Shown here: positions 8,587-29,561 of the stretch, in pieces
How the letters are laid out: every line of letters begins with the position of its first letter
Position numbering within the stretch: the stretch's first letter is position 1
Source of the DNA: Alphaproteobacteria bacterium
GTDB taxonomy: Bacteria; Pseudomonadota; Alphaproteobacteria; RF32; CAG-239
Reading direction: 5' to 3'
Assembly: GCA_017460085.1 (NCBI GenBank)
Contig: JAFUBQ010000013.1
Coordinates: 62,001-126,000 of the forward strand
DNA length: 64,000 nt
Notes under the pieces: model-generated
Told to the model about the DNA's origin: nothing
Databases searched by the model: none
The model's input: only the letters and a program-made list of their open reading frames with translations
Position numbers and translations under genes: made by a program

Positions 8587-9066
8587 TCAGCCCAAACCAG
8601 AGCGTTTTAGAAAACGATTGAGTGTCATACGCTGCACACCCAGAATGCGGGCAATTTGTGCCTTTTTTAGCCCTTTGGCCAGCAACTCCTCAATCTTCTT
8701 GGCATTCTTGGTCAATTTAAGTTTCTTGGCTTCTGCACCCATCGGACGACCGAGACGAACACCGGCAGCCCTCCGGTTATCCAAAGAAGATTTGGTGCGC
8801 TGCGAAATCAAGTTGCGCTCAATCTGCGCCGAAAGCCCGAACGCAAAGGCCAACACCTGCGATTGAATATCATTGCCGAGGTGGTAGTTTTCTTTAATCG
8901 TAATAACTTGGCAATTTTTAGCTAAACAGGTCTGTAAAATCCCCATTACTTCTAACAATGAGCGCCCAAGCCGTGAAATTTCGGTGGCAATTAAAACATC
9001 ATTTTCTTGTAATTCTTCTAATAATGCTCCGAGTTTGCGCTTTTTGAACCGAATTGTTTTGCCGTA
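8587..9066 (-). pseudogene. 5'-truncated serine recombinase
   Basis: The frame encodes the C-terminal two thirds of a recombinase of the same family as 13187-13780 and 19646-20254. Present are the ATEISRLGRSLLEVMGILQ segment, the long helix with SAQIERNLISQRT, and the terminal HTH (KAQIARILGVQRMTLNRFLK). The in-frame sequence can be followed upstream of the first internal ATG to KRKLGALL and then loses similarity. The N-terminal beta-strand with the catalytic Ser is missing. It is a dead copy, and the only one of the three local relatives without an adjacent inverted-repeat switch. Confidence 0.75.
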
Positions 9067-10040: not shown

Positions 10041-12239
10041 TTACAATATTTCTTTTTGGGTACGCTCTTTTTCGTAAGCTGATAGCTTTTGAGTTACAAA
10101 TTCGCTATTTTGTTTAATATATTTAATAAAGGTCGCAGAAGAAATACCTTGCGGTACACTGCTATCTATTTTTTTTATGGCTGTCGTAGGTATATCAAAT
10201 TCCAATAATAGGCTTGCCCTTTCAGATACATAATCATTTTCTATCATAGAAATAAAATAGGAATAGTCACCCGCAGGAACGCCTTTTTTACTACATATGA
10301 ATTTTTGTATTTCATTAAAAGCTCCAAACCATTTAGGAATTTTATAATCAAACCAATGTCGTTGGATTTGTAAAGCATGTATCATTGCCCAATTATAATC
10401 CTTGTTAAGTGTATCATGATAATAGGATACTTCATTTTTTATAATTGTGCTTAAACTCCTAACATTATTGCACTTTTGTATAATAGTGGCTAGTTTTCGG
10501 GGTGATACATTTTGGGTTTCAGATTTTTTTAATAAATGCTTGAAACATAAGTTAAGTATGAATTCTGCCTGGTCAAAATTTGGAAAATTATACCATTGCA
10601 ACAAAGGATAAGCTGTAATAAAATCTGAGTTGATATAATCGTAAATAGACTTTTGACCGTCTATACTGAGACCTGTAGATTTATACAATTCCAGCTCATC
10701 ATCAGGTAATTGCATAAGTTCTTTGTATTCTTTAGACCCTTTATCTTTTATATCTTCTTCAGGAGTTTGGGCTAATATTTCTTTGCATAGAGGATTTTCT
10801 TGGTCTACAAATGGTATATCAACGCTCATATCTTTTTCTTTAATGCTGGGGTAAAAGTTATATAATACTCCCGTATAGTGCTTGAACATTCGTCCAGAAC
10901 GTCCCTTGATGTTTTTATAATCAAAATAATCGATTTTATTATTAGTTTTTCCTCGCCAATCATTATATAATATAACGTTTTTTGCAGATGTGTTGACACC
11001 TTCTATAATAGTTGATGTACAAAATAAATATTTTAGTGTCACTCCATTATTAAAATAATCCATAATCGCTGCATTTATATGTTTTGGAAAAGCACCATTG
11101 TGTAACCCTATTTTGTGTTTTAAGCATAAAATAACATCCCATTTATAAGAGAAATTATCACAAATCCACGAAATTAATGGAACATTGTGTTCTGTGTTTT
11201 GAAATTTATAATTTGTATTTTCTAAGTATTTTGCAAAACTAATAGCTGTATCAGTTGCTTTTTCGGGAGAAGAACAATAAATGATAGTTTGCCCATCGAG
11301 GTTTTCTAATACATTAAATAGTTTCAATTCTTTAATGTCTTTTTTCCTATCAGAATAATATTTGTTTCCATTTTTTATTTCTTGCTCCTCATTTACCACA
11401 AGGCTATATTTATACCTTTTGAATATCACGTTATATTTTTCTATGAAGTCTTGTGATATTGTATCTATATTTGGACCCAAGAAATAAAAACGAGACTTAT
11501 GGAAATTTAATATCTTACTACATGCATTATTGAGAATTTCATACCGTTCATCAGCTCTTTTCTGACTTATTTTATAAAATTCATCTAAAATAAAAAAGTC
11601 TATTCTAGGTAAATCTTTATATTCCATAACTCTTTCAGCAGTCAACAGAAAGAGATTTCTCTTTTCATTAGTCGGTTTATCCGATACACGAACAATAATT
11701 TGATATATATCATCATATTTTCGTAAATTATTTCTTGTTTCGTTTAATAAAGCGAGGGTCGGCTGTATAATTAGAATATTGTTATACTTTGCACTTGCAA
11801 CAATTTCTTCAATTAATAAACTTTTCCCAAAACTGGTCGGAGCACTTACAACAATATTTCTTTCTGTGTTTAATAGTAATTCTTTTACTTCATTTTGAGC
11901 TTCATGAAAATAGATTTGAGTATCGGATTTAATAAATTCGGATTTATGTAATTCTTTTTGTATTTCCATTCTTAGATTATTAAAATCTAACTTATCTTTG
12001 TCTTTTTCTAAATAAGGATAAAAACCACATTGTGCTATTATATCAGTGTATAATTGTCTGTAATTGTTAGGGACATTATTCCAATACTCTAAAATATAAA
12101 CTACAATTTCTCTAGCTTTAATTTGGTTATCTTCATTATCAGATAGCATATAGTTAATATATTTTGCCAAAACAAAGTAATCGTCTCTTTCTAAACTATT
12201 ATTTTTTATTTTATTTACATATTCAAGGTATTGACTCAT
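10041..12239 (-). CDS. hamB: HamB, Hachiman defence helicase
   Basis: This 732-aa superfamily-2 helicase has the HamB layout. Motif I is SAPTSFGKS (residues about 132-140), motif II is ILDEFYK (DEFY rather than DEAD), and motif VI is IKGRSGRMF, with a long helical C-terminal region. In the known Hachiman system HamB senses DNA ends and releases the HamA nuclease when phage or damaged DNA is met. Its ATG overlaps the hamA stop by 4 bp, so the two are translationally coupled. No frameshifts or missing motifs are apparent. It lies between a dead recombinase plus nuclease region and a live recombinase gene. Confidence 0.87.
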   Translation of the reverse strand: MSQYLEYVNKIKNNSLERDDYFVLAKYINYMLSDNEDNQIKAREIVVYILEYWNNVPNNYRQLYTDIIAQCGFYPYLEKDKDKLDFNNLRMEIQKELHKSEFIKSDTQIYFHEAQNEVKELLLNTERNIVVSAPTSFGKSLLIEEIVASAKYNNILIIQPTLALLNETRNNLRKYDDIYQIIVRVSDKPTNEKRNLFLLTAERVMEYKDLPRIDFFILDEFYKISQKRADERYEILNNACSKILNFHKSRFYFLGPNIDTISQDFIEKYNVIFKRYKYSLVVNEEQEIKNGNKYYSDRKKDIKELKLFNVLENLDGQTIIYCSSPEKATDTAISFAKYLENTNYKFQNTEHNVPLISWICDNFSYKWDVILCLKHKIGLHNGAFPKHINAAIMDYFNNGVTLKYLFCTSTIIEGVNTSAKNVILYNDWRGKTNNKIDYFDYKNIKGRSGRMFKHYTGVLYNFYPSIKEKDMSVDIPFVDQENPLCKEILAQTPEEDIKDKGSKEYKELMQLPDDELELYKSTGLSIDGQKSIYDYINSDFITAYPLLQWYNFPNFDQAEFILNLCFKHLLKKSETQNVSPRKLATIIQKCNNVRSLSTIIKNEVSYYHDTLNKDYNWAMIHALQIQRHWFDYKIPKWFGAFNEIQKFICSKKGVPAGDYSYFISMIENDYVSERASLLLEFDIPTTAIKKIDSSVPQGISSATFIKYIKQNSEFVTQKLSAYEKERTQKEIL

Positions 12240-13105
12240 GATTTACCGCACCCTTTATCAATACGTTTATAATACTCCTCTATTAGTTTGTCTTTGTCAG
12301 GAATTGGAAATAGCATTAGTACTATTGATAAACAGCTAGGTTTATTAATATCTTTATTTCTAAAATAAGCATCCAATTCTCTCATTTCTTTTTCATACAT
12401 CTCAATAAATTCTTTTGAAACACGGGAATGCTTTGTATATTCATCATACGTATACGTGCATAGCAATGGTACATATAGTTCGTCAATAACTTCATCTAAT
12501 GTGTTCGCACTTCGTAATTTTAATTCCCAATCATCTATTTGCTGAATTGTAGGCATTACGATGCTTTTTTGAATTTTTTCATCAGATGAATGGGTTAATG
12601 CGGAAATCTTTACAAATTGCTTTCTAGCATAATCAGCGGTAAAATGTTTTTTTATATCATCAACAAGAGCATCAATACCTTTTTTACCCACTTTAAACAT
12701 TTTACTTTCACCTAGCACTAGGATTTTTTTATCTGGTTTAGGTAAAATATGAATTACATCAAAACTTTTAGCATTTGTATTTTTATCAACAGCGAAATAA
12801 AATCTCCCTGTTAGGGGAAAAGTGTTTAGGTATTTACGCAACAATGCATGGAGTATAATTTCTCCCAAATCGCCTTCTTTTTGAGGATTACGCTTTTCTT
12901 TATATAATTTCTCACAAGCATTGAAAAATTTTTGATGTGATTGAGGGTTGTTAATATTACAATAATCTATTCCAAATACAAATTCTAAAAGAGAATCCAT
13001 AAGTATATCTAAAAGTTCCTGAGATTTATCCCCGTTCTCATCAAAATTTAGATAGTATGTTTTTAATTCTTTTTCATTTATATATTGTATAGCTACATTT
13101 TCCAT
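12236..13105 (-). CDS. hamA: HamA, Hachiman effector nuclease (DUF1837)
   Basis: This 289-aa protein has the DUF1837 signature. EGDLGEIILHALLRKY lies near residues 78-92, SFDVIHI near 114-120, and LGESKMFKVGKKGIDALVDD from about 131 follows. The spaced Glu, Asp and ExK (E82, D116, E133/K135) fit a PD-(D/E)XK nuclease core. In Hachiman, HamA is held by HamB and degrades DNA non-specifically when released. I start at the ATG at 13105. An upstream TTG start at 13165 would place the -35 and -10 of a good promoter inside the coding sequence. Confidence 0.87.
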   Translation of the reverse strand: MENVAIQYINEKELKTYYLNFDENGDKSQELLDILMDSLLEFVFGIDYCNINNPQSHQKFFNACEKLYKEKRNPQKEGDLGEIILHALLRKYLNTFPLTGRFYFAVDKNTNAKSFDVIHILPKPDKKILVLGESKMFKVGKKGIDALVDDIKKHFTADYARKQFVKISALTHSSDEKIQKSIVMPTIQQIDDWELKLRSANTLDEVIDELYVPLLCTYTYDEYTKHSRVSKEFIEMYEKEMRELDAYFRNKDINKPSCLSIVLMLFPIPDKDKLIEEYYKRIDKGCGKS

Positions 13106-13186: not shown

Positions 13187-13780
13187 TTATAAAACCCAGC
13201 ATTCCTTAACATACCTATGTAAAGTGTTCCAATCGCAGCCGAGGAGACGGGCAATTTCGGCTTTAGATACGTGTTTATCAAGCAATTCCTTGATTTTGTT
13301 GTGCTTTTTCTTCAATTTGCGATAAGTGCTGCCACGAGGGCGACCAATGTGTTTTCCTTCGGCTTTTACACGTTTTAGGGATTCTCTGGTGCGGTCTGAT
13401 ATCAGTTGGCGTTCTATTTCACTGGCAAGAGAAAAAGCAAAGGCTAACACTTTGCTTTGAATGTCTGCGCCAAGCCTGTAATTCTCTTTTAAAGTCCAGA
13501 TTTGGCATTCTTTTTCAAGACATTGCTGCAAAATTCCCATAACTTCAAGCAAATTGCGTCCTAAACGACTTAATTCAGTTGCAATTAAAATATCATCTTT
13601 CTTAAGTTTTTTAAGCAAACTACCGAGTTTTCGTTCATTTAAAGGTTTTCGTGACGATATGGTCTCGCATACCCATTTATCAATCTGAATACCATTGCTC
13701 TCGGCAAAAGTCGTAATTTCGTGGGTTTGGTTTTCTAAATGCTGCTGCTCGGTGCTGACTCTGATATATCCGTAAATCAT
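13187..13780 (-). CDS. serine recombinase (resolvase/invertase)
   Basis: This complete 197-aa small serine recombinase has an N-terminal catalytic domain beginning MIYGYIRVS (catalytic S9), the ELSRLGRN active-site segment, the long E helix (SEIERQLISDRTRESLKRV), and a C-terminal HTH (KAEIARLLGCDWNTLHRYVK). It is closely similar to 19646-20254 and to the dead copy at 8587. Its 5' end faces a 128-bp segment bounded by 15-bp inverted repeats in front of the R-M operon. It is therefore the natural candidate for the enzyme that flips this segment. Resolvase activity on another site is the alternative. Confidence 0.88.
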   Translation of the reverse strand: MIYGYIRVSTEQQHLENQTHEITTFAESNGIQIDKWVCETISSRKPLNERKLGSLLKKLKKDDILIATELSRLGRNLLEVMGILQQCLEKECQIWTLKENYRLGADIQSKVLAFAFSLASEIERQLISDRTRESLKRVKAEGKHIGRPRGSTYRKLKKKHNKIKELLDKHVSKAEIARLLGCDWNTLHRYVKECWVL

Positions 13781-13850
13781 TGTAAATCCTTTTGTTTGTA
13801 ATTATTTATTCGGATTTCACAATAACTTATAACAAAACAAATACTGAAAT

Positions 13851-14008
13851 AAACCCACCGATTTTGATGATAAAAATTTGATTGCCTAAAAATTTAGTGG
13901 AGATAGATATTAAAAAACTTGAATTTCAGAGCCTTTCTGTTAATAATGATTTTATATTTTAATATTACAAACGGGTTAATTTTAATACTGAAAAAAATCG
14001 GTGGGTTT
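13851..14008. promoter_or_regulatory. candidate invertible promoter segment for the R-M operon
   Basis: Perfect 15-bp inverted repeats AAACCCACCGATTTT (13851-13865) and its complement (13994-14008) bound 128 bp. The right repeat ends 2 bp before the ATG of the R-M operon and contains its GGTGGG ribosome-site-like stretch. Promoter-like pairs exist in both directions inside: TTGAAT (13919-13924)-17 bp-AATAAT (13942-13947) rightward, and TTAACC-17 bp-TATAAA (TATAAA at 13951-13956) leftward. Outer and inner flanks are direct repeats: AATACTGAAA precedes both cores (13840, 13984) and GATGA follows both (13866, 14010). Confidence 0.7.
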
Positions 14009-14010
14009 TG

Positions 14011-14985
14011 ATGAGTGTGGCAGTTGAGCAAAATGAGGAGATTGATATCTTGGAGCAAGACATTCAGGATATCAGCCCATTTCTGCTTAAAATACTGTTA
14101 GAAGATAAGACTACAGGCAAATTTATACGTTTTGCTTGCGATGAATACCTTAAATATGGCGAAGCATATGCCGCAGACAAAGAGATTTATCCTGAACTGA
14201 TTATCGGAAACAATACCAAAATTATCCAACCACGCACAGCCAAAAGCAAAGATGAACAAATAAACCGCACACGTAAGGCAGCAGAAGTTTTTACGCCAAG
14301 TTGGATATGTAATGAAATGAATAATCATTGTGATGAACAGTGGTTTGGTCGTCCAAATGTTTTTAATACACCTAATGGGCACGACTGGACACCTAATCCT
14401 GAACCGATAACATTTCCTGAAGATGGCAAGAACAAACGTGCTGGTTGGATGAAATATGTTGATTCTAAACGTTTGGAAATAACTTGCGGTGAGGCTCCAT
14501 ATTTGGTTAGCCGCTATGATACAACAACGGGAGAGTTTTTGCCGATAGTTAAGCGTATCGGTATTTTAGACCGCAAACTCCGCATAGTTAATGAAAATAC
14601 GAACAATGAAACAGATTGGTATAAATGGGCAAAACGAGCCTTTGAAAGCACTTATGGCTATGAATATCAGGGCGATAATCTGCTTTTAGCCCGTGAAAAC
14701 CTGCTCTGGACGTTTATTGACTATTATCAGCAGCGATTTGGTATTGAGCCGACATTGGTTCAGAAAAAGCAGATTGCCAACGTAATTGCGTGGAATGTAT
14801 GGCAGATGGACGGATTGAATGACACTGTGCCGTTCGCAACTTCGGAAGAAAATGATAACCAATTAGAATTGTTTGATGATTTACCGAAGATTTATACCCC
14901 AATGCTCTGCAAGATGAAAGACTGGCGGAGTAAAGAGATTTTTTATTTCCAAGACCTAAAGAAAGGAACAAAAAATGAAATTTGA
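14011..14985 (+). CDS. R-M subunit, methyltransferase-like N-terminal component
   Basis: This 324-aa protein resembles 'restriction endonuclease subunit M' proteins. RKAAEVFTPSWICNEMNN is the motif-X-like start common in adenine methyltransferases. EITCGEAPYLVSRYDTTTGE lies where the S-adenosylmethionine site is expected, followed by YGYEYQGDNLLLARENLL. It lacks the NPPY catalytic motif, which opens the next gene. The start is the ATG at 14011, two bases after the inverted repeat of the switch; the preceding TTG is less likely. It overlaps the next gene by 11 bp. Together the three genes make one R-M module whose expression may be phase-variable. Confidence 0.7.
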   Translation: MSVAVEQNEEIDILEQDIQDISPFLLKILLEDKTTGKFIRFACDEYLKYGEAYAADKEIYPELIIGNNTKIIQPRTAKSKDEQINRTRKAAEVFTPSWICNEMNNHCDEQWFGRPNVFNTPNGHDWTPNPEPITFPEDGKNKRAGWMKYVDSKRLEITCGEAPYLVSRYDTTTGEFLPIVKRIGILDRKLRIVNENTNNETDWYKWAKRAFESTYGYEYQGDNLLLARENLLWTFIDYYQQRFGIEPTLVQKKQIANVIAWNVWQMDGLNDTVPFATSEENDNQLELFDDLPKIYTPMLCKMKDWRSKEIFYFQDLKKGTKNEI

Positions 14986-16018
14986 TGTTGTTATAGGAAA
15001 TCCACCGTATCAAGATAATATTGAAAATAGAGGAGAACAACCTCCGTTATATCATATGGTATATGATGCGGCTATTGATATTTGCGATTTTGTAACACTT
15101 ATAACTCCAGCAAGGTTCCTTTTTGATGCAGGAAAAACACCGCATATTTGGAATCAGAAAATGTTAAACAACGAACATTTCAAGGTTATCAAATATTATC
15201 CTAACTCAAAAAATGTTTTTAGTAGTGTAGATATTGAAGGTGGTGTTGCTATTACTTGTGTCAATAAGAAAATTAAATATGGTGCAATAAAGATGTTTAT
15301 TCACGATGACATCTTAAGAAATATTACCATTAAAGTAAATAAATCAAAACCAACATCTCTTAATACTATTTTATATTCCAATACCAGTTATAAGTATTCA
15401 AATAGTTTTTTTGCTGAAAACAAAGGATTTGCTGAAAGGGTATCAGGAGGTTCATCTCGTTATTTATCATCGTCAGTTTTTGATAAATTTCCCGAAGTTT
15501 TTCATGATAATATACCTGATACAAAAAATGAATATGCACAAATAATAGGTAGGCAAAATAATGAGCGAGCAACAAAGTATTTGAAAAAAAGTTACTTAAA
15601 CCCACCTGAAAATTTTGAAAATTACAAAATATTTATTCCAAGTTCCAACGGTTCTGGTGCAATAGGCGAAGTACTATCTACCCCAGTAATGGGATATCCA
15701 ATAATGGGATATCCAGCAATGGGGGCAACAGAAACTTTTATTAGTTTTGGAAACTTCAAAAAACAAAATGAAGCCAACAACTTATTAAAATATGTAAAAA
15801 CAAAGTTTGTAAGACTTATGCTTGGTACGAGAAAAGTTACTCAAGGAAATAAAAACCCTAAAGTATGGAGTAATGTTCCGCTCCAAGATTTTACTTCAAA
15901 CAGCGATATAGATTGGTCTAAATCCATACACGAGATAGATTTGCAGTTGTATAAGAAATATGGTCTTGATGACAACGAAATCAAATTTATTGAAACACAC
16001 GTAAAGGAGATGGCGTAA
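14975..16018 (+). CDS. Eco57I-type N6-adenine methyltransferase subunit
   Basis: This 347-aa protein opens with FDVVIGNPPYQDN, the NPPY catalytic motif of adenine-N6 methyltransferases. It continues with conserved Eco57I-type segments (DFVTLITPARFLFDAG, FPEVFHDNIP), then a probable target-recognition region and a C-terminal tail. It contains no SAM-binding motif I, so it must work with the neighbouring polypeptides. It overlaps the upstream gene by 11 bp, and its TAA overlaps the downstream ATG (TAATG). A short in-frame tandem repeat (MGYPIMGYPAMG, about residues 240-250) sits in the recognition region and could be a site of specificity change. Confidence 0.8.
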   Translation: MKFDVVIGNPPYQDNIENRGEQPPLYHMVYDAAIDICDFVTLITPARFLFDAGKTPHIWNQKMLNNEHFKVIKYYPNSKNVFSSVDIEGGVAITCVNKKIKYGAIKMFIHDDILRNITIKVNKSKPTSLNTILYSNTSYKYSNSFFAENKGFAERVSGGSSRYLSSSVFDKFPEVFHDNIPDTKNEYAQIIGRQNNERATKYLKKSYLNPPENFENYKIFIPSSNGSGAIGEVLSTPVMGYPIMGYPAMGATETFISFGNFKKQNEANNLLKYVKTKFVRLMLGTRKVTQGNKNPKVWSNVPLQDFTSNSDIDWSKSIHEIDLQLYKKYGLDDNEIKFIETHVKEMA

Positions 16019-19000
16019 TGGCAGCAATCAATATTAAGACCGCAAAGCAAATTGAACCAAAATGCTATGCTTATACAACTCCTGAAATTAAACGTCACGA
16101 TGGTTGGACTAAAATCGGCTATACCGAGCAAGATGATGTTAAAAAGCGCATTCAGCAACAAACCCAAACAGCAAATGTAGAATTTAACCTTGAATGGGAA
16201 AAGCGGGCGATTTATGAAGATGGTACTGGTGATGCGTTTAGGGATAAGGATTTTCACGCTTATTTAAGCAAAAAAGATTATGAAAAGATGCCAAATACAG
16301 AATGGTTTCATATTCTACCAAATAAATCGCTTGAAGAATTTTTGTATTTCCGTAGCCATCGTGGTATTTTGGAATCTTACGGTGCATTACCATATCAATT
16401 AAGACAAGAACAAAATCAAGCTGTTCAACAAACCAAAAATTACTTTACCTTGCATACTGGTGATGAGCCAGAGTTTTTGTGGAATGCCAAGCCTCGTTTT
16501 GGTAAAACTCTTTCAACTTATGAACTTTGCAAAACGCTTGATGCCCGAAAGATATTGATTGTAACCAATCGTCCGGCAATCGCAACATCTTGGTATGATG
16601 ACTATGTAAAGTTTTTAGGAACACAGTCCGGATATTATTTTATAAGCCAAGTGGATACATTAAAAGAGCGTAAATATGTGCTTTCTCGTGAGCAATATGT
16701 GAGTGTTCGTGATAAACTTAAGGGATTTATAGAGTTTGTATCTTTGCAGGATATGAAAGGTTCAATTTATTTCGGTGGAAATATTGATAAACTGAAAGAA
16801 GTTGCCGAGCTTGAGTGGGATATTTTGGTAATTGATGAAGCTCACGAAGGTGTTGATACCTATAAAACCGATGTGGCTTTTGACCATATTAAACGCAAAT
16901 ATACACTCCATTTATCCGGTACCCCGTTTAAGGCTTTAGCAAACAGTAAGTTCCGTGAAGAAGAAATCTATAACTGGACATACGCTGATGAGCAAAAGGC
17001 AAAGCGTGAGTGGGACAGCAGCAGCGAAGAAGAAAATCCATACGCAACATTACCGCAACTGAATTTATACACCTATCAAATGTCCGAGATTATCCGTGAT
17101 AAGTTAAAGAAAGGTGCGGACTTTGATAATGATGGTGAAGACGAAGAATATGCTTTTGATTTGAATGAATTTTTTGCCACTCAAGCCAATGGTAGTTTTA
17201 AGTATGATGCCGATGTAGATAAGTTTTTAGAAGCATTAACAACATTGCCGAAGTTTCCGTTTTCTACCGATGAATTGCGCCAAGAATTAAAGCATACATT
17301 TTGGCTGCTTAATCGTGTAGATAGTGCTAAAGCATTGGCAAGAAAACTAAAAGAGCATCCAGTATTTGCTGACTATGAGATTGTTTTGGTTGCTGGTGAC
17401 GGTAGATTGGACGATGATACCGAGAATAAAAAGGCTTTTGATAAGGTAATTAAAGCCATTAAGGAAAATGAGAAAACGATAACAATTTCGGTCGGACAAT
17501 TAACCACTGGCGTTACTGTTCCTGAATGGACAGCGGTTTTAATGTTAAGCAATGTTAAAAGTCCTGCACTTTATATGCAAGCGGCGTTTCGGGCGCAAAA
17601 TCCATGTCTATTCAACATAGATGGTAGCCTGTTCCGCAAAGAGAATGCGTATGTGTTTGACTTTGACCCTGCAAGAACTTTGGACATTTTTGAACAATTT
17701 GCAAACGATTTGAGTGCAGATACCACCAGCGGCAAAGGTGATATGGATACAAGAAAACGCCACGTTCGTGAATTGATTAACTTCTTCCCTGTATATGGTG
17801 AAGATGACGAAGGCGAAATGATAACGCTTGATGCGGAAAAAGTGCTTTCTATACCACGTAAGATTCACGCCGTAGAGGTGGTTAGACGTGGATTTATGAG
17901 CAACTTCTTGTTCCAAAACATAAGCAATATTTTTAGCGCACCGAAAGAAGTTGTTGATATCATCAAGCAATTTGAGCCAGTGAAAGAACCTGTTCCAGTA
18001 ACAAAGAACACAAAAGATGACTTATCCATCAATGATGATGGGGAAGTTGAGTTATCACAAAAGACCATTGATATCGGTGTAGATAACGTGTTTGGCGAGA
18101 AAATCTATGCAGTTGTTGATGATTTGCAGGACACAATAGAAGAAATTCAGAAAAAGCCGACAGATATCAAGAAAGATACAACTTTTGAAGCCCTAAAAGA
18201 GCAATTTAAGGCGACTGTTGCTGAACCTTTAATTTCTACAGCCAAAGAGCATTATGGTAAAGATATGTCTGCCAGCACGCAAAAAGCCGTAGAAAGGAAG
18301 ATAAATGCTGAAAGTGATACGGTTATTGCTAAACATTACGGCGATTTCAAAATTCAACACAATACCATTGAATTAGAACGCCAAAAGGAAATTGAACAGG
18401 CAAGAATTGAACACAAGCCAGAGAAAATTGCTCAAATCAACAAAGTATATGACAAGAAACAAGAAGAAAATAAAAAGAGCTTTGTTGAGAGTATGCAAGA
18501 AAAGGCAGAAGAATTGGTTAAAACCGCAGGACAAACGATTGTTGAAGCGGTTGAAACGGATAAGAAAACCAAAGAAAAGAATGCTATTGAAACATCCGTT
18601 CGTGACCATCTACGTGGATTTTCAAGAACAATTCCGTCATTTTTAATGGCATACGGTGATGATGATACAACTTTGGAAAACTTTGATGAGATTATACCGG
18701 ATGAGGTTTTCAAAGATGTTACCAGTATTAGCCTTGATGAATTTAGATTCCTGCGTGATGGTGGCGACTATACAGACGAAGAAACAGGAGAAACAAAGCA
18801 TTTTGACGGACATTTGTTTGACCCAGTAGTCTTTAATGACTCAGTTAAAGAGTTTTTACGTTTGAAAAGAAAGTTAGCTAACTACTTTGATGAAAATAGC
18901 ACGGAAGATATCTTTGACTATATTCCGCCACAAAAAACGAACCAAATCTATACGCCGAAAAAGGTTGTGATAGAAATGGTTGATAATCTGGAAAAAGAGT

Positions 19001-19338
19001 GTCCGGAATGCTTTGAAGACAGCGATAAGACTTTCATTGATTTGTATATGAAGTCTGGTCTTTATATTACAGAGATTGTCAAACGGTTATTCAGAAGCAA
19101 AGCATTGAAACGAGAGTTCCCTAATGAAAATGACAGATTAAAGCACATTTTTGCTAATCAAGTCTATGGCTTGGCACCAACGGAAATTATATATCGTATT
19201 GCAAAAGCCTATATTTTGGGCTTTGATGAGGATATTGAAATCAAAAAGCACCATTTGCGGCAGTTTGATACACTTCCATCAGTCCAAAGAGGAACTCTGG
19301 AACGTGATTTAGACAGGGTTTTTGATGATGTAGGTTAA
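16018..19338 (+). CDS. R-M helicase-nuclease with GIY-YIG-like and methylase parts
   Basis: This 1106-aa multidomain protein starts with a GIY-YIG-like nuclease domain of the T5orf172 type at residues about 15-100 (CYAYTT, then WTKIGYTEQDD and RDKDFHAYL). An SF2 translocase follows: Walker A NAKPRFGKTLS at 156-166, VIDEAHEG, LHLSGTPF, and SVGQLTTGVTVPEW. A long charged coiled-coil region lies around 720-870. The C-terminus carries IYTPKKVVIEMVDNLE and FIDLYMKSGLYITEIVKRLF, which look like methyltransferase motifs X and I. The protein thus appears to supply cleavage, translocation and part of the methyltransferase that the previous gene completes with NPPY. Overlapping starts indicate one operon with the two upstream genes. 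Confidence 0.75.
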   Translation: MAAINIKTAKQIEPKCYAYTTPEIKRHDGWTKIGYTEQDDVKKRIQQQTQTANVEFNLEWEKRAIYEDGTGDAFRDKDFHAYLSKKDYEKMPNTEWFHILPNKSLEEFLYFRSHRGILESYGALPYQLRQEQNQAVQQTKNYFTLHTGDEPEFLWNAKPRFGKTLSTYELCKTLDARKILIVTNRPAIATSWYDDYVKFLGTQSGYYFISQVDTLKERKYVLSREQYVSVRDKLKGFIEFVSLQDMKGSIYFGGNIDKLKEVAELEWDILVIDEAHEGVDTYKTDVAFDHIKRKYTLHLSGTPFKALANSKFREEEIYNWTYADEQKAKREWDSSSEEENPYATLPQLNLYTYQMSEIIRDKLKKGADFDNDGEDEEYAFDLNEFFATQANGSFKYDADVDKFLEALTTLPKFPFSTDELRQELKHTFWLLNRVDSAKALARKLKEHPVFADYEIVLVAGDGRLDDDTENKKAFDKVIKAIKENEKTITISVGQLTTGVTVPEWTAVLMLSNVKSPALYMQAAFRAQNPCLFNIDGSLFRKENAYVFDFDPARTLDIFEQFANDLSADTTSGKGDMDTRKRHVRELINFFPVYGEDDEGEMITLDAEKVLSIPRKIHAVEVVRRGFMSNFLFQNISNIFSAPKEVVDIIKQFEPVKEPVPVTKNTKDDLSINDDGEVELSQKTIDIGVDNVFGEKIYAVVDDLQDTIEEIQKKPTDIKKDTTFEALKEQFKATVAEPLISTAKEHYGKDMSASTQKAVERKINAESDTVIAKHYGDFKIQHNTIELERQKEIEQARIEHKPEKIAQINKVYDKKQEENKKSFVESMQEKAEELVKTAGQTIVEAVETDKKTKEKNAIETSVRDHLRGFSRTIPSFLMAYGDDDTTLENFDEIIPDEVFKDVTSISLDEFRFLRDGGDYTDEETGETKHFDGHLFDPVVFNDSVKEFLRLKRKLANYFDENSTEDIFDYIPPQKTNQIYTPKKVVIEMVDNLEKECPECFEDSDKTFIDLYMKSGLYITEIVKRLFRSKALKREFPNENDRLKHIFANQVYGLAPTEIIYRIAKAYILGFDEDIEIKKHHLRQFDTLPSVQRGTLERDLDRVFDDVG

Positions 19339-19645: not shown

Positions 19646-20254
19646 TTATTCTGTATTATATTCCGGAACGGCAGATTTTATGTAGCGATGCAAAGTTGAC
19701 CAAGAACATCCGAGCATACGGGCAATTTCTGACTTTGATACTTTCTTAGAAAGCAATTCTACAATTTTGTGATGCTTGCGTTTTAATTTTTTGGAAGTTT
19801 TACCAACAGGTCGACCGATGTGTTTTCCTTCTGCCTTTACACGTTTTAGGGATTCTCTGGTGCGGTCAGAGATGAGTTGTCGTTCTATTTCGCTGGCAAG
19901 CGAAAAAGCAAAAGCCAACACTTTGCTTTGAATATCAGAGCCAAGACGATAATTTTCTTTCAAAGTCCAGATTTGACAATCTTTTTCAAGGCATTGCTGT
20001 AAAATCCCCATAACTTCCAGCATATTGCGTCCCACTCTCGAAAGTTCGGTCGTAATTAAGATATCCTGCGCTTTTAATTTTTTGAGCAATTTTCCGAGTT
20101 TGCGTTCATTTAATGGTTTTCGGGACGAAATAGTTTCTTCAACCCATTCATCAATCTTGATATTATGGGCAGAAGTATATTTTTCTATTTCAAAATGTTG
20201 GTTTTCTAATGTTTGCAAAGAACTTGATACACGACAGTAACAATAACAAGTCAT
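19646..20254 (-). CDS. serine recombinase (resolvase/invertase)
   Basis: A complete 202-aa protein starts MTCYCYCRVS with catalytic S10. It shares long identical stretches with 13187-13780 (ETISSRKPLNERKLG, EVMGILQQCLEK, SDRTRESLKRVKAEGKHIGR). The C-terminal HTH is KSEIARMLGCSWSTLHRYIK. Its 5' end faces a segment bounded by 16-bp inverted repeats upstream of the adhesin gene, the same arrangement as at the R-M operon. This parallel makes a DNA-invertase role more likely than a generic resolvase role. Confidence 0.88.
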   Translation of the reverse strand: MTCYCYCRVSSSLQTLENQHFEIEKYTSAHNIKIDEWVEETISSRKPLNERKLGKLLKKLKAQDILITTELSRVGRNMLEVMGILQQCLEKDCQIWTLKENYRLGSDIQSKVLAFAFSLASEIERQLISDRTRESLKRVKAEGKHIGRPVGKTSKKLKRKHHKIVELLSKKVSKSEIARMLGCSWSTLHRYIKSAVPEYNTE

Positions 20255-20310: not shown

Positions 20311-20471
20311 AAAAAAGACCGGTTTTTTGCAATAAGATTTGCGAGTATATTACAGCAAATAAAATAAGAGTCAATACCCCAATCAATCCTTTACACAATA
20401 TGACTTTTCGGCATTTTTCTTAATATCATATAATAAATTCGAAAAATAACTCGCCAAAACCGGTCTTTTTT
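20311..20471. promoter_or_regulatory. candidate invertible promoter segment for the adhesin
   Basis: Perfect 16-bp inverted repeats AAAAAAGACCGGTTTT (20311-20326) and its complement (20456-20471) enclose 129 bp between the recombinase gene and the adhesin gene. Inside, the best promoter reads leftward, away from the adhesin (next entry). A TATAAT at 20429-20434 reads rightward but lacks a clear -35. A shorter imperfect repeat, GCGAGT, lies inside both ends. In the orientation seen the adhesin would be weakly expressed or off, and inversion would point the strong promoter at it. Inversion itself is inference. Confidence 0.68.
20347..20374 (-). promoter_or_regulatory. strong promoter inside the adhesin switch
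   Basis: TTGACT (20369-20374), a 16-bp spacer and TAATAT (20347-20352) read on the minus strand toward the recombinase gene in the present orientation. Confidence 0.6.
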
Positions 20472-20524: not shown

Positions 20525-23500
20525 ATGCTTAATATCTTAAGAGAACCAGACAAAAAATTTATATTAAGAAACTGCTTGTTATTAAGCACAGTATGTGCTG
20601 GATTATTGTTTAGTGGAAATGCGAGAGCAGAAATACCTGTATATTATAATGGAGCTAAACATACTTTTGGTATAGATTCATCAGATGAAATAAAGTTAGG
20701 AATCAATCATACTGGTGAAAATCAATTTTACAAATTTACTATGCCTGAATCAGATAAAGAAAACATTTTTACAGCTAAACAAACTTTCAATAGTGTAACA
20801 TTTTCTTCTACAGGTTCAGCGACTGTTAATACTATAGCAACAAGTGTTTCATCTTCATCAACAAATAAACAATTAGTAACAGCAAAAGGAGTATATGATG
20901 CCCTTAAAAATGCAGGTGTAACTGATATGAGCATTTATGCTAAAACTGACGATGTGTATGGTAAAAGTGAAGTTTATACAAAAGATGAAGCAGACGGTAA
21001 GTTTTTAACATCGCACCAAGATATTAGCGGTAAGGCAAATGTAGGAGATTCATATACAAAAGCTGAATCAGATGGTAAATATGCTACAAAATCGGCATTA
21101 AATGAATACATTAAGTCATCAGAAATATATGACTATATAGATTATGTAGCACCTAAGGCCATTACACCTACTCGTGATGCGATGATAGCATATCAAAATG
21201 ATGCTAATCATGGGAAATATGTCACAACATCCGCACCAACAGGGGCTGATAAAGAGCAATTAATTCTATTGTCAAGTAGCAGATTTTATTTTGTTCCAAA
21301 TGAAGTTTCACACGATATGGAAAAAACATTAAATCAATTATTAACAAGTACGGATAAAAAATTTTCATATTCCGGTGACTATGTTTTCACAAGACCAAAT
21401 ATGAGCGGTTCTTGGACATTTGATACATCAGCACTTTCTGCTTCAAATATTATCACGACCGAAGCAACATTGGATGATTATACTTATACGAAAGCAGATG
21501 AAAATGGATTTCTTACTGCGTATAAAGTATCCGGTCTTAGAAACACAGACGAACGTAATACTAATCTGACAACAAATATAATCGGCGGATATTACGAGGG
21601 TCAAAAATCTACCAAAGAAAAGGAAGGTGGAGCATTAACCATAACCAATAATACCATTAACAAAATTGAAGCAGACTTTGTTGGTAACCAGCATACAAAC
21701 GGTCAGTCCGGCGGCGCTATCTACAACGGAGAAGGTGGTATTGTTAAAATGCTTATCGGTGATTTTGCCGGAAACAGTGCCAGATATGGTGGTGCCATTA
21801 CAAATGCGAACACTATTACCACAATATTAGGTGATTTTATTGGTAATACTGCTTCAGGTTCCGGTGGTGCTATTTCAAATTCTGGAACAATCACAACATT
21901 GATAGGTGATTATAATGGTAATACAGCTACTGTTATGGGAGGTGCTGTTTTTAATGGTAGTGGATCTACCATAACAACATTGTCGGGAAATTTTAATAAT
22001 AATACGGCAACAAACTCTTTTGGTGGCGCTATTCTTAATGGGGGTGTAATATCATCAATAATCGGAGATTTTAATTACAATAAATCAGGTAATTACGGCG
22101 GCGCTATTTATAATACTTCAGCAAATAGCGAAATTGGAACAATTACCGGTAATTTCAATAATAATAAAACAGTAAAATTCGGTGGTGCAATTTATAATGA
22201 ACAAGGAACAATTCATAAATTAATAGGTAACTTTAATAGCAATAAGTCAGAATGGGATGGTGGAGCTATTTATAATGCATCTAATGGAACAATAGAAACA
22301 ATTATTGGAAACTTTGAAGGTAACGAATCCTCAGATGGTGCAGGGATATATAATGCAGGAATAATTGAAAATTATACAGGTGATTTCAAAAATAATAAAG
22401 CGACAACATCGGGTGGTGCCATTAGTAATTCTGGAACAATTGGATTATTGGCAAAAAATCAGGATATCACGTTTTATAATAACATCGATAGCACCGGTTA
22501 TAATGACCTTTCTGGTGGAACATATAATTTGAATGCTCAATCGGGTTATAAAATCAATTTCGGAGGTTCAATCAGAAACGCACAGTTAAATATCAACAAT
22601 GATACATCTGAGGAAAACAGCGGAGGAGAATATATTTTCAACAACAAAATTACATCTAGTATGAAGCTTTATAATGGTGCTAATGTTAAATTAGGAAGTA
22701 TTAAACAAGAAGACGGAACAACTACCTATGGTTATATAACACCATATGCAAGTATTTCTTTGCAGGTTAATGGTGATGGTAATAATATTGATATGCGTAA
22801 TGACCATATTGATACCAATACTGTAAGCAATTTGAGCTTAGGTGGTAATTTAGGACTAAGTATTGATACAAGTTTGCGCCGGTATAGTGACAGTGCTTCT
22901 GATACACTTGTCAGCAAGGCAACGGCAACCGGTGACGGCAAAATGATTATCAATGCAATTAATCTTACCAACAGCACATACGGCGAAGGTGATAGCATAA
23001 AAATCAGCATTGCCGATGACAAAACTAAGGGAAAAATTGCAATCGCTGATGATATTTTGGATAATATAACCGGTGCAACTAACTATTACACAAAAGTTGA
23101 ATATGATGAAGATACCGGCGATTTGGTATTTACAGATAAGTTGGTTAATAAATCTACATTAGACCAAGCATTGCAAGATGCCGGTATCGGCGATATGAGT
23201 ATTTACGCCAAAACTGCTGATGTGTATGATAATGTATACACCAAATCGCAGACAGATGATAAGTTTGCTACAAAAGAGTCTCTCGGAAGTTATGTTACAT
23301 CAGAAAGTTTAGGCACTACACTCGGCGGATATGTAACAACCGACGGATTAAATACGGCATTAACGCCGTATGCCAAGTCATCTGATGTTGCGGAAACTTA
23401 TGCCACAAAAGATTCTATTACTGATATGCTAACGAAGACAGAAGCAGGTAGCACTTATGCAACAAAAACAAGCGTATATACGAAAGACGAAGCAAATGAA

Positions 23501-25768
23501 ACATTTGCTGTCAAAGGTTCATCATACACAAAAAGTGAAATAGATGAAACACTCAGCGGATATGTAACAACAGGCGGATTAAATACAGCATTGACACCGT
23601 ATGCCAAGTCATCTGATGTGGCAGATACCTATGCCACCAAAGAAGCACTTACTACTGGTTTAGGTAATAAAGTTGATACATCAGCTTTCAATGAATATAA
23701 GACAGAAGTTAATAATACATACGCAAAATCTGGTGATGTTTATTCTAAAAACGATATTGATACAAAATTTGGAGGTTATGTGAAATCTGATGATTTAAGC
23801 ACAACATTAAGCGATTATGCCAAATCAACAGATTTAAATGACTACGCAAAATCAAGCGATTTAGGTGCTTATGCTAAAACATCTGATATTGCCGAAACAT
23901 ACGCTACAAAACATGAATTAGGCAATTATGTAACATCCAATAGTTTAGATAATAAACTTGGTGATTATGCTAAAACTTCTGATTTGTCTGACTATGCAAA
24001 GACATCTGATTTAGGTAGTTATGTTAAATCTTCTGATTTAAATTCAACATTGAGCGGATATGCAAAAACTTCTGATATTAGCGATATGCTGACAAAGACT
24101 GAAGCAGGTAATACCTATGCTACAAAAGCATCACTTAATGACTATGCGACCAAAACATCGTTAAATGATTATGTTAAGTCTGATACATTAGACAGCACTT
24201 TATCTGGTTACGCAAAATCAAGTGATTTAGATGCTTATGCTAAAACATCTGATATTAGTGATATGCTGACAAAAACTGAAGCAGGTAATACATATGCTAC
24301 GAAAGATTCTTTAAACGGATACGCAAAATCTGATGATGTATATTCAAAAAATGATATGGATACAAAATTGAGCGGTTATGTCACTTCTGATAATTTAGAT
24401 GCAAAACTCGGAAGTTATGTTAAATCGGATGACCTTACAACTACCCTCGGTAGTTATGCTAAAACAGAAGATATAGCAAATACTTATGCTACAAAAGATG
24501 AATTAGACGGTAAAGTAGATACTTCTGCGTTTAATACCTATAAGACAGAAGTTGGAAATACTTACGCCACGAAAGATGAATTAGGCAATAAAGCCGATGT
24601 TTCTACTGTTACCGCACTTCAAACCACGGTATCTGATTTAAGTGATACTGTTGCCGGTAAAGCAAATCAGTCCGATTTGGAAACATTACAAACAACCGTT
24701 GCCGGAAAAGCAAATGCGGCGGATGTTTATACCAAAGATGAAGCAGATAATAAGTATGCTACACAAAATGCTATCAGTGATATGCTGACAAAGACTGAAG
24801 CAGGCAATACTTATGCGACGCAATCGGCATTAAATGATTATAAAACAAGCAATGATAATGCCGTATCTGCTTTAACAGGTAAAATGACACAAGTGGAAAC
24901 AGATATTTCGGGCATCAAAGGTTCAGCGGTTATGTCTTCCGGTATTACGGCAGAAAAAGTTGCCGCATACGAAGGATATGCCGCATTGATTGATGCCAAG
25001 CAAGATGCTTTATCAACAGAACAAATGGCAGTATTAAACAGCGGAATAACCGCTGCCGATATAGCAACCGTTCAAACAGCAAATGCTCGTTTAGATGCTA
25101 TGGACACAACAGTTGCTGATTTGAGTGCCGATTTTGGTGATGTTTCTGACTTTACTAATTCTAAAACAGGTAATTTGAAAAATGATGTTCCATCATCATC
25201 AAAACCAAATGCTACAACTGTTACGAAAGCAATCGCCAATATGGATGCGACAATCGGTCAAATTCACGGACTTGCCGCAAAAGTCGGTGTTGAAAACGGT
25301 GGAGCAAACCTTGGTCAAAACACAACTGTTGAAGAACATTTGACTTCTTTGGCAGGTTCTATTGGTAACAGAACACACTACACACAGCAGAATTATATTA
25401 AAAATAATCAAACGGTAGCACAATCGTTAGATAATTTGGATGTTGCTGTAGGTAGTATCCGTAGAGATTTCAATTCGGCACAAATTGCCAATGAGGCAAG
25501 ATTTAATGATATAGAACACAATATCAGCCACTTGGAAAATAAAATGGAAAAAGGTTTGGCAGCAAACAATGCTTTAGCAGGATTAAAACCATTAAGTTCT
25601 ACATCAAGAACACAATTAAGTGCGGCAATGGGTGGTTATGAAAATAATCAGGCATTTGCTATCGGTGGTTTCCATTATGTTACGGATAAGGTATTATTGA
25701 ATACTGGTGTTGCTTATGGCGGTAACAACAGTATGTCATATAATGTCGGTGTAACATTCGGGTTTTAA
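20525..25768 (+). CDS. giant YadA-type trimeric autotransporter adhesin
   Basis: A long signal peptide (through GLLFSGNARA, about residues 1-36) starts this 1747-aa protein. Residues about 360-650 hold a dozen or so units of the form GGAIYN-x-GTI-x-GDFNGN, a beta-helix passenger. Residues about 870-1500 are dominated by YAKSSDL, YATK and MLTKTEAGNTYAT repeats, likely a trimeric stalk. Near the C-terminus come a coiled coil (IEHNISHLENKMEKGL) and a YadA anchor (AMGGYENNQAFAIGGFHYV to VGVTFGF) ending in Phe, as for outer-membrane beta-barrels. It should form a surface fibre for attachment. It is expressed from beside the putative promoter switch and is followed by a chaperone gene. Repeat-driven length variation is likely. 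Confidence 0.88.
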   Translation: MLNILREPDKKFILRNCLLLSTVCAGLLFSGNARAEIPVYYNGAKHTFGIDSSDEIKLGINHTGENQFYKFTMPESDKENIFTAKQTFNSVTFSSTGSATVNTIATSVSSSSTNKQLVTAKGVYDALKNAGVTDMSIYAKTDDVYGKSEVYTKDEADGKFLTSHQDISGKANVGDSYTKAESDGKYATKSALNEYIKSSEIYDYIDYVAPKAITPTRDAMIAYQNDANHGKYVTTSAPTGADKEQLILLSSSRFYFVPNEVSHDMEKTLNQLLTSTDKKFSYSGDYVFTRPNMSGSWTFDTSALSASNIITTEATLDDYTYTKADENGFLTAYKVSGLRNTDERNTNLTTNIIGGYYEGQKSTKEKEGGALTITNNTINKIEADFVGNQHTNGQSGGAIYNGEGGIVKMLIGDFAGNSARYGGAITNANTITTILGDFIGNTASGSGGAISNSGTITTLIGDYNGNTATVMGGAVFNGSGSTITTLSGNFNNNTATNSFGGAILNGGVISSIIGDFNYNKSGNYGGAIYNTSANSEIGTITGNFNNNKTVKFGGAIYNEQGTIHKLIGNFNSNKSEWDGGAIYNASNGTIETIIGNFEGNESSDGAGIYNAGIIENYTGDFKNNKATTSGGAISNSGTIGLLAKNQDITFYNNIDSTGYNDLSGGTYNLNAQSGYKINFGGSIRNAQLNINNDTSEENSGGEYIFNNKITSSMKLYNGANVKLGSIKQEDGTTTYGYITPYASISLQVNGDGNNIDMRNDHIDTNTVSNLSLGGNLGLSIDTSLRRYSDSASDTLVSKATATGDGKMIINAINLTNSTYGEGDSIKISIADDKTKGKIAIADDILDNITGATNYYTKVEYDEDTGDLVFTDKLVNKSTLDQALQDAGIGDMSIYAKTADVYDNVYTKSQTDDKFATKESLGSYVTSESLGTTLGGYVTTDGLNTALTPYAKSSDVAETYATKDSITDMLTKTEAGSTYATKTSVYTKDEANETFAVKGSSYTKSEIDETLSGYVTTGGLNTALTPYAKSSDVADTYATKEALTTGLGNKVDTSAFNEYKTEVNNTYAKSGDVYSKNDIDTKFGGYVKSDDLSTTLSDYAKSTDLNDYAKSSDLGAYAKTSDIAETYATKHELGNYVTSNSLDNKLGDYAKTSDLSDYAKTSDLGSYVKSSDLNSTLSGYAKTSDISDMLTKTEAGNTYATKASLNDYATKTSLNDYVKSDTLDSTLSGYAKSSDLDAYAKTSDISDMLTKTEAGNTYATKDSLNGYAKSDDVYSKNDMDTKLSGYVTSDNLDAKLGSYVKSDDLTTTLGSYAKTEDIANTYATKDELDGKVDTSAFNTYKTEVGNTYATKDELGNKADVSTVTALQTTVSDLSDTVAGKANQSDLETLQTTVAGKANAADVYTKDEADNKYATQNAISDMLTKTEAGNTYATQSALNDYKTSNDNAVSALTGKMTQVETDISGIKGSAVMSSGITAEKVAAYEGYAALIDAKQDALSTEQMAVLNSGITAADIATVQTANARLDAMDTTVADLSADFGDVSDFTNSKTGNLKNDVPSSSKPNATTVTKAIANMDATIGQIHGLAAKVGVENGGANLGQNTTVEEHLTSLAGSIGNRTHYTQQNYIKNNQTVAQSLDNLDVAVGSIRRDFNSAQIANEARFNDIEHNISHLENKMEKGLAANNALAGLKPLSSTSRTQLSAAMGGYENNQAFAIGGFHYVTDKVLLNTGVAYGGNNSMSYNVGVTFGF

Positions 25769-26365: not shown

Positions 26366-26397
26366 CACTACCTGTTAATTCAAGTAGTGTCTTTTTT
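26366..26397 (+). terminator. terminator of the adhesin-chaperone operon
   Basis: CACTACCTG/CAAGTAGTG pair around a TTAATT loop (26366-26389, one mismatch), followed by a T-run. An upstream pair AGGACAT/ATGTCCT (26305-26311, 26349-26355) may add structure. Confidence 0.65.
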
Positions 26398-26501
26398 TAT
26401 AAAAAATTAGTATCACGAAGTATACTTAAATGATTCTAAAAAATCTGTTGTTTCAAAAAATATAAACTATAGTAAAATAGGCATTTTTTATAAAAATTAT
26501 C

Positions 26502-26571: not shown

Positions 26572-27135
26572 ATGAAAATAAAATATGTTCGGTGCAGTTC
26601 TATAACACAAAACTATGATAGACAGTTAGAGGATGCTGATAAGTATGATTTAATCTTTCAAGAAAAAATCAGCGGCAAAAGTAAAGATAATAGACCTGAA
26701 TTACAAAATATGCTTAAATCTATTAGAGCAGGTGATGAATGCTATACAGAAGACATATCAAGACTTGCCAGGAATACGCTTGACTTGCTCACTATTATCC
26801 AAGAAATAAAGGACAAGGGCGCATCCATCACCTTCATCAAAGAGGGATGGACATTCAGTAATATCGAAAATTTTGCAACAAAAACACAAGAAATGATGCT
26901 TACGATTATGGGAGCAATAGCTCAAGCAGAAAGAATTACAATAAAAGAACGACAGATGGCTGGCATAAGAGTTGCTCAATCTAAAGGAAAGTATACAAAA
27001 GCACATCCAACAAAATTAAATAAAGTTATCATACAACAAATAAAAGATGACCGTGCATCAGGTATGAAAGAAAGAGAGTTAATGAATAAGTATCATATAT
27101 CAAAACCAACATTATACAGATATTTGAGAAAGTAA
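26572..27135 (+). CDS. serine recombinase, second subfamily
   Basis: This is a complete 187-aa protein: MKIKYVRCSS (catalytic Ser 9 or 10), ISGKSKDNRPELQNMLKSI, ISRLARNTLDLL, the E helix with IAQAERITIKERQ, and a C-terminal HTH (ERELMNKYHISKPTLYRYLR). It is closer to 39726-40268 than to the two recombinases beside the promoter switches. It has its own regulated promoter and an AAGGA ribosome site. The substrate is unknown. Confidence 0.87.
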   Translation: MKIKYVRCSSITQNYDRQLEDADKYDLIFQEKISGKSKDNRPELQNMLKSIRAGDECYTEDISRLARNTLDLLTIIQEIKDKGASITFIKEGWTFSNIENFATKTQEMMLTIMGAIAQAERITIKERQMAGIRVAQSKGKYTKAHPTKLNKVIIQQIKDDRASGMKERELMNKYHISKPTLYRYLRK

Positions 27136-27766: not shown

Positions 27767-29530
27767 TCATTTATTACGTTTCTTGATGGCTTCAATGTTT
27801 CTGTTTAGAAATGGATACTTCAGTTTTTCCAGTTCATTGGATAATTTTTTGACGGATACGTGTCTGCCATAGACATCTTCACCGATATTACCGCCAACCC
27901 ATCCGCAGAGTTTGTGTTGATATTCTATTGAAATGCCTGAATCCCGAAGATGTTGTTTCACTGTATGACGGAACGAGTGAAAGGCATTTGTATTCTTTTT
28001 TATTCCGAGTTGTTTCAAATATCGGGCAAACCATCCGCTCATAGTGTTTGCGTAATGATTTTTTTCGCTATAGGAAAACTGGTAAAACAAACGGTCTTTT
28101 TTCAGTTCCTTAACTCGCTTTATGTAATCCAGCAAACCAAGTTCTATCAATGTTGGATGTATTGGCACATTGCGCTTGGATGCTTTATTTTTGATATGCT
28201 GGTCTTTTCGTTCATCAGTCAGCTTGAAATACCAAACTTTTCTTTCACACTTGATGTCATCAAGGTAAAGTTGGCAAATTTCATTCAGCCGCATACCTGA
28301 AAATAGGGCAATCAAGGGAATCCAAAAACGGTATGGATGCTGAATGTCTATCTTTCGTGGATATGTTTTAACATTGAATATGAGTTTCAATTCATCTTTA
28401 CTAAATTCCTCACGTTCAACAGCTTCTTTAACTTTAGAAATACGGATGTCATTGTATAAGTCTCCCACATTATATCCGTTGTTCTTACAGAAGGTCATAA
28501 ATTCACGAAATACTCGCAAATATTTCTTTATCGTTGTCAGGGAAATGTGGTCTTCGTTTTGCTGGGCTAAAATATCACTCAATTTCTTGCCTTTATAACG
28601 TTCCTTCCACTTCTTTGGCAGGTTATAGATTGCTCTGCTGACATTTCTACAATCCTGCGATGTTATGCTCTCAACTGTGGTTTTACCAATCATAGCAAAG
28701 ATTGTTTCCAGACATTTTTCATCCTTATTGATGCTATTTTCGCTTACACGGTCATTACGCTTGTCTGCTGCAAATTCGGCAAAGACCTTAAACCACGGTG
28801 AAGATGTTGTAGGAGTGTTGGAACGGTCATTTTTCTCATTTTCCAGAGCGGTCAAACAACGCTTTACACGGTCGTTAATACGCTTGTTGAACACTACATC
28901 CTGCTCGATGCTGTCAAACTTATCTTTGATGTATTTGTCCAGCCCTTTAATAGCTGCCAGTGTTTTCATAATAGGTTCTTCAGGAGCGGCTTTGTTGGTA
29001 ATTATAGGGATTTGCTCTTTTTCAATCCTGCCGATTTGCTTAACAACGCTTCGGTGGGTTGTTCCATACCTATTGTCCTTCAGGTCGTTGAAATACTCTT
29101 TAATGAACAACTCTACGCATTCAATCTCGTATTGGTTCTTCTGTGCATCAGGAAACTTTTTTATATTTTCAGGGTTGCTTAAGGTAGTGTAGTTTTCGGG
29201 GGTAAGTTTATGAGAAGCAATATCTTCTTCCCGATTCTCAAAAATATACTCAACTTCTTGCAACTTAAACTTGACCATCTTATCAATATCTTCATCGTCA
29301 AGTATGAGTTGTCCCTTCCTGATTCTCATATCAATCTCCCTCAACAGGTTAATCTTTACATTAACCTTATGACTCTCTTTTGGTAATTTTGCAAGTGCTT
29401 CGTAGTAGTCGTTGGTTTTGAGGGAATACCAAAATTGGGTGGAATTGGCAAGATATACCAGAGACGAGGGGATTCTTGCCCTGATATAGTAAGTGTGGTT
29501 TCTGCGAACGAGTCGGTTGTGTCCGTTCAT
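27767..29530 (-). CDS. tyrosine recombinase/integrase of element 1
   Basis: A 587-aa phage-type integrase. Its long N-terminal half has arm-binding and core-binding regions, and the catalytic domain lies at about residues 385-570: IALFSGMRLNEICQ (catalytic Arg), HSFRHT (HxxR), KLCGWVGG (His/Trp position) and VYGRH (Tyr nucleophile). It lies 103 bp from a tRNA-Gln 3' end, as expected for an integrase acting there. The ATG at 29530 has AGGAG 5 nt upstream; the TTG before it is too close to that site. Its architecture matches the integrase at 44611, so the two elements are related. Confidence 0.88.
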   Translation of the reverse strand: MNGHNRLVRRNHTYYIRARIPSSLVYLANSTQFWYSLKTNDYYEALAKLPKESHKVNVKINLLREIDMRIRKGQLILDDEDIDKMVKFKLQEVEYIFENREEDIASHKLTPENYTTLSNPENIKKFPDAQKNQYEIECVELFIKEYFNDLKDNRYGTTHRSVVKQIGRIEKEQIPIITNKAAPEEPIMKTLAAIKGLDKYIKDKFDSIEQDVVFNKRINDRVKRCLTALENEKNDRSNTPTTSSPWFKVFAEFAADKRNDRVSENSINKDEKCLETIFAMIGKTTVESITSQDCRNVSRAIYNLPKKWKERYKGKKLSDILAQQNEDHISLTTIKKYLRVFREFMTFCKNNGYNVGDLYNDIRISKVKEAVEREEFSKDELKLIFNVKTYPRKIDIQHPYRFWIPLIALFSGMRLNEICQLYLDDIKCERKVWYFKLTDERKDQHIKNKASKRNVPIHPTLIELGLLDYIKRVKELKKDRLFYQFSYSEKNHYANTMSGWFARYLKQLGIKKNTNAFHSFRHTVKQHLRDSGISIEYQHKLCGWVGGNIGEDVYGRHVSVKKLSNELEKLKYPFLNRNIEAIKKRNK

Positions 29531-29539
29531 CAATGCTCC

Positions 29540-29561
29540 TGTGATACAGTGTTGTGATACA
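29540..29561. repeat. direct repeats upstream of integrase 1
   Basis: TGTGATACA occurs at 29540-29548 and 29553-29561, 13 bp apart, between the integrase start and the tRNA. They are possible integrase arm-type sites or an operator. Confidence 0.4.

Follow-up and report, generated by a model that had tools for sequence, protein, structure and literature searches.

A restriction-modification operon of an alphaproteobacterium that DNA inversion very probably turns on and off

The window, by which we mean the whole 64,000-nucleotide stretch of alphaproteobacterial DNA that was analysed, very probably holds a phage-defence restriction-modification (R-M) system that is switched on and off by DNA inversion. 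Based on sequence comparison, the reading that we favour, with a probability of about 0.83, is a dedicated promoter switch (inverton) that serves the R-M operon and would stand in the ON state in the window. According to the proposed mechanism, a divergently transcribed invertase of the Mpi family would recombine two sites separated by ~144 bp, with the crossover at a 2-bp centre (AC), and in this way flip a promoter-bearing segment lying between the invertase gene and the operon. In the ON state the promoter would read into the operon, the first gene of which encodes a methyltransferase, and in the OFF state it would read toward the invertase. Upon switching to OFF, the half-sites (denoted X, X', Y and Y') would also regroup as palindromes, with X-X' on the invertase side and Y-Y' at the start of the R-M operon. 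The former would make a terminator-like hairpin on the leftward transcript, and the latter would enclose the start codon of the R-M operon in whatever RNA reads through.

The segment is located between the gene for the Mpi-family serine invertase (13187-13780, minus strand) and the three-gene R-M operon (14011-19338, plus strand). The left recombination site (13840-13870, X/Y' in the present state) contains the arm AAACCCACCGATTTT at 13851-13865, and the right one (13984-14014, X'/Y in the present state) contains the arm AAAATCGGTGGGTTT at 13994-14008. The arms are complementary at 15 of 15 positions, so that the perfect inverted repeats enclosing 128 bp, on which the original prediction was built, are indeed there. 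They have no other perfect copies anywhere in the 1.59-Mb genome assembly, and in dinucleotide shuffles of 13781-14014 a 15-bp inverted repeat arose in 0.035% of trials (~4 in 10,000). Inverted repeats with arms of at least 15 bp placed 60-400 bp apart number two in the 64-kb window, against 0.12 expected, the second one being a sister switch at 20311-20471. The direct flanks described earlier are likewise in place (AATACTGAAA at 13840-13849 and 13984-13993, GATGA at 13866-13870 and 14010-14014), and in silico flipping of the segment reproduced the dyad-symmetric sites predicted for the inverted form. The crossover would fall within the repeat, at the dinucleotide AC on the left (13857-13858) and GT on the right (14001-14002). 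Consequently, while the repeats and their 128-bp spacing stand as proposed, the inverting unit itself would be longer, with about 144 bp exchanged (13858-14001) rather than 128. The segment's own DNA gave no match in a search of a viral collection, which therefore supplied no strain-level copies.

The gene beside the segment encodes a protein of 197 aa (Pfam Resolvase, 1.7e-32) that scores 282.2 bits against NCBIfam NF009949, the 'master DNA invertase Mpi family', for which the cut-off is 272. When aligned to a solved DNA-invertase and to gamma-delta resolvase, it displays the catalytic motifs RVST and SRLGRN with their Ser and Arg. What had been noted as a serine recombinase gene is thus one that passes the Mpi family cut-off with its catalytic motifs present, and it is presumably this adjacent enzyme that catalyses flipping of the segment. 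On the other side, R-M gene 1 (14011-14985, plus strand) codes for a DNA methyltransferase subunit that matches PADLOC MTase_II (9.8e-105) over nearly its full length. It is followed on the same strand by gene 2 (14975-16018), an Eco57I-type methylase part with an NPPY motif (Pfam Eco57I, 3.7e-16; C-terminal part of PADLOC IIG), and by gene 3 (16018-19338), which by Pfam/PADLOC-type profile matches is a ResIII helicase with a weak N-terminal match to T5orf172. The methylase parts and the helicase are open and full length, and the nuclease part is represented by the weak T5orf172 match only. The translation start of gene 1 lies inside the right recombination site: the ATG occupies 14011-14013 and the ribosome-site-like GGTGGG (14000-14005) sits inside the right arm, just as the original prediction had it.

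Evidence that the original prediction lacked comes from comparison with related genomes. The divergent layout of invertase and R-M operon recurs in gut and rumen alphaproteobacterial genomes, namely at the loci L055, L062 (=L049) and L061_2222 (position 2222 of L061). R-M gene 1 of the latter two is 85-87% identical to that of the window, and the invertase beside the R-M genes of L061_2222 was matched over its first 100 residues only. An R-M system of matching type is also present in L050, there with a more distant invertase outside the window's clade. The dyad-symmetric state predicted for the flipped window was found in two of these relatives, L049 and L061_2222, in which the right site reads TCATCAAAA...TTTTGATGA and the left site is a CTGAAA or CGGAAA palindrome, whereas the sites of the window are mixed, each of them holding one half of both dyads. 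The present arrangement had been explained as one inversion away from a symmetric ancestor. The symmetric state does exist, in the relatives, but the two arrangements are better read as alternating states, with palindromic/palindromic sites corresponding to OFF and mixed/mixed sites to ON.

The segments themselves point in the same direction, that of the window being inverted with respect to L061_2222 and other homologues. Its inner part aligns to that of L061_2222 with a score of 25 in the inverted and 9 in the direct orientation (the best of 200 shuffles for this comparison reached 8.5), and to that of L061_5994 with scores of 35 and -2, respectively. Among other loci of the invertase family, L109/L056 and L114 have a left flank that is 95% identical and collinear, whereas the inner segment matches inverted only (83/111 positions versus 37/111 direct). 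L107 and L108, both from goat forestomach assemblies, are near-identical over the ~290 bp compared and differ by one clean inversion of 128 bp, the breakpoints of which fall in CCAA, the site being AAATTAAACC-AA-GGTTTAATTT with a short common core only. This last inversion sits upstream of an invertase and makes the pair well suited for testing the recombination site. Both orientations are therefore observed at homologous loci of related species; since the compared loci are single consensus assemblies of different species, inversion is seen between genomes and not within a clone. Flipping may also be ongoing in the window's own strain, in which case its cells would form the mixed population originally proposed.

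Which way the segment reads can be judged from its promoter-like sequences. The rightward pair TTGAAT (13919-13924) and AATAAT (13942-13947), separated by 17 bp on the plus strand and facing the R-M operon, matches the consensus at 9 of 12 positions in AT-rich DNA, and its -35 box is poorly conserved. A consensus scan of the segment returned 3 boxes where 2.1 are expected, which taken alone is not above chance. More informative is TTAATAAT, a conserved -10-like box of the inner segments, which in the window belongs to the TTGAAT-17-AATAAT pair and whose distance to the centre of the site that it faces is 53-54 bp. It is directed to the right, toward the R-M genes, in the window and in L055, and to the left in L049 (with one mismatch), in both copies of L061 and in L058. 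We take this box as the candidate promoter of the switch, and from its direction at each locus we assign ON to the window and L055 and OFF to the others; with the box facing the operon, the R-M genes of the window would be expressed. Promoter-like boxes had been proposed in both directions and they do occur in both, but conservation backs the rightward box and not the leftward one. Together, the opposite site states, the inverted segments in relatives and the box that changes direction support the proposed phase-variable promoter switch.

The switch does not appear to be confined to a single kind of target. For many homologous invertases, both in the genus and in named genomes, inverted repeats lie at a distance of 40-90 bp from the start codon and in most cases enclose 100-150 bp, and related loci keep repeats of like kind while the inner DNA diverges. 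Among the nearest invertases, the right-hand target is an R-M system of the window's type in the window, L055, L061_2222 and L062 (=L049), a type III methyltransferase in L056, L057 and L109 (followed by a 960-aa helicase-like ORF in L056), a different Eco57I-type R-M in L114 and an HKD-Snf2 protein, a PADLOC candidate, in L058. In L059 and L061_5994 the targets are sugar-transferase-like genes, recognised by sequence motifs only. A maximum-likelihood tree built from 83 invertases places the window's enzyme in a clade of ten rows (support 98/93), of which 7 are defence-linked and 2 glycan-linked, the labelled rows excluding L114 and the copy of L061_2222; the majority of the glycan-linked rows fall into the clade next to it. 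Mpi-type switches are also seen in L068, L069, L080, L084 and L100 before a recombinase-like protein of ~200 aa followed by polysaccharide-like genes, and this protein could be a conserved regulator of glycan loci. The R-M homologues of L051, L052 and L053 have no inverted-repeat switch upstream. In L051 and L052 a co-directional, distant serine recombinase (37% identical) precedes the R-M gene, with no repeat pair between them. No recognisable repeat was found for some Mpi homologues, such as that of L014; the repeat search may miss real switches, because L107 and L108 share only a short common core.

An additional lock at the RNA level, set by hairpins of the sites in the OFF state, is plausible. 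In the window flipped in silico, Y-Y' RNA is predicted to fold at -12.8 kcal/mol (z -4.0), and the corresponding z values are -5.2 in L049, -4.9 in L061_2222 and -6.1 in L057, in all three of which the start codon is within the Y stem. The fold is weak in L109 (z -1.1) and L114 (z -1.5), and the two inner ends in L055 both belong to type X, leaving no Y-Y' form, so that the start-codon hairpin is not universal. The right site of the window still folds moderately in its ON form (-8.7 kcal/mol, z -2.2), and translational relief would therefore be partial. On the leftward transcript, X-X' gives a hairpin with U-tracts after it in L049 and L061_2222, and less so in the window (UGUUUUGUU). Within a locus X and Y have different outer arms, yet X is matched to X' and Y to Y', the partners co-changing between loci: pairing amounts to 150 pairs within versus 120 between loci on the left and 128 versus 100 on the right, with 0 of 20000 shuffles as good in a permutation test whose statistic ignores the relatedness of the loci.

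It is nearly an even bet that the palindromes are dyad-symmetric binding sites of the invertase and nothing else, control being exerted purely by promoter direction with no function for RNA. Sites of serine invertases are generally dyad-symmetric (hix sites, 26 bp), which speaks for this simpler explanation, as does the similarity between the inner parts of X and Y. The co-changing arms, the U-tracts after the X hairpin and the start codons inside the Y stem argue against it. Somewhat more tentatively, one might consider a modular, double-locked defence switch, in which a single inversion would turn the promoter and at the same time rebuild the sites into RNA elements. A cassette of 130-145 bp would then yield a terminator next to the invertase together with a hairpin that covers the defence gene's start codon, and the R-M system, potentially toxic when leaky, would be shut in OFF cells at both transcription and translation. 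Within a subclade of Mpi-type invertases, such a cassette would have been recruited repeatedly, to several unrelated defence systems.

A different role for the segment is suggested by its left-hand neighbours, the Hachiman defence genes HamA (12236-13105, minus strand, 3.4e-52) and HamB, a helicase (10041-12239, minus strand, 2.8e-203). Since they come right after the invertase on its strand and the promoter would face left in the flipped state, the segment might act as a two-way selector, driving either the R-M operon or invertase-HamA-HamB and letting cells choose between defences. We consider this unlikely, because HamA is immediately preceded by a strong promoter-like sequence of its own (TTGACA-18-TATAGT, 13141-13112, minus strand, 11/12 matches) and the leftward transcript would meet the terminator-like hairpin; moreover, the examined stretches of relatives with the R-M switch have no Hachiman genes. 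The Hachiman system is probably a neighbour with its own promoter and not under the switch. Still less credible is a relic, that is, a former inverton locked with the R-M operon ON and inherited along with its invertase, which would fit the single orientation in the assembly but not the identical arms, the intact invertase with its catalytic motifs or the like repeats that related loci keep despite diverged inner DNA.

Apart from the R-M inverton, the window contains sister switch B (20311-20326/20456-20471), which consists of 16-bp inverted repeats with 129 bp between them and is located before an autotransporter-like ORF of 1747 aa (20525-25768, plus strand). Its Mpi-like invertase (19646-20254, minus strand) scores 268 bits, just under the cut-off of 272, and the autotransporter-like protein is probably a phase-variable surface protein. 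Further recombinase genes are a truncated serine invertase lacking the N-terminal half (8587-8958), with no notable repeat pair adjoining, and a serine recombinase of another type (26572-27135), which adjoins a 14-bp AT-only inverted repeat (26394-26496) that may be due to chance. The region 27767-32796, possibly a defence-carrying island, has an integrase-like gene next to tRNA-Gln (29633-29707) and, on the other side, a type II restriction enzyme (30371-31192, PADLOC 2e-115) with a 530-aa neighbour.

What emerges is a promoter-flipping module with its own invertase that appears repeatedly ahead of genes for R-M and other defence systems in uncultured gut and rumen Alphaproteobacteria. If this is the case, defence itself would be a bet-hedged trait, and the orientation of the segment in metagenome reads would offer a simple readout for when phage pressure selects defence-ON cells.

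How does this compare with known systems? Known phase-variable R-M systems mostly rely on slippage of simple repeats in mod genes or on the shuffling of specificity genes, and promoter inversion has mainly been described for surface structures; the hsd inversions of Mycoplasma pulmonis likewise switch R-M on and off, and phase-variable R-M of Bacteroides fragilis was reportedly addressed by Ben-Assa in 2020. In the open-access literature we found no promoter inverton before an R-M operon, with key papers lying outside its scope and novelty thus unproven, and nothing on Hachiman. It has been documented that the activity of an R-M system can vary within a lineage (PMC11868660) and that inversions between hsdS genes change R-M specificity (PMC5903667). 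In varying its activity within a lineage, the R-M system of the window would be like the phasevarions, but here the whole operon would go on and off by promoter inversion. By sequence, the enzyme is of the Mpi family, and the element is expected to work like a classical inverton. It resembles Mpi of B. fragilis, a global promoter invertase, in the invertase family, the short invertible promoter segments and the inverted repeats. Unlike that enzyme, the window's invertase is local, with one enzyme per switch, and is encoded divergently to its target. This target is an R-M operon in an alphaproteobacterial host, and its start codon is overlapped by the recombination sites. Hin/fljBA and Gin-type switches similarly have a small serine recombinase, dyad sites and a 2-bp crossover (the centre is AA in L107/L108), and differ in target, in size (144 bp in the window) and in that no enhancer or Fis requirement was identified here. 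Finally, IVp-I of B. fragilis has inverted repeats between promoter and gene, the number of which is inversely correlated with transcription (PMC4747536), whereas the repeat of the window would mask the start codon or act as a terminator in the OFF state only.
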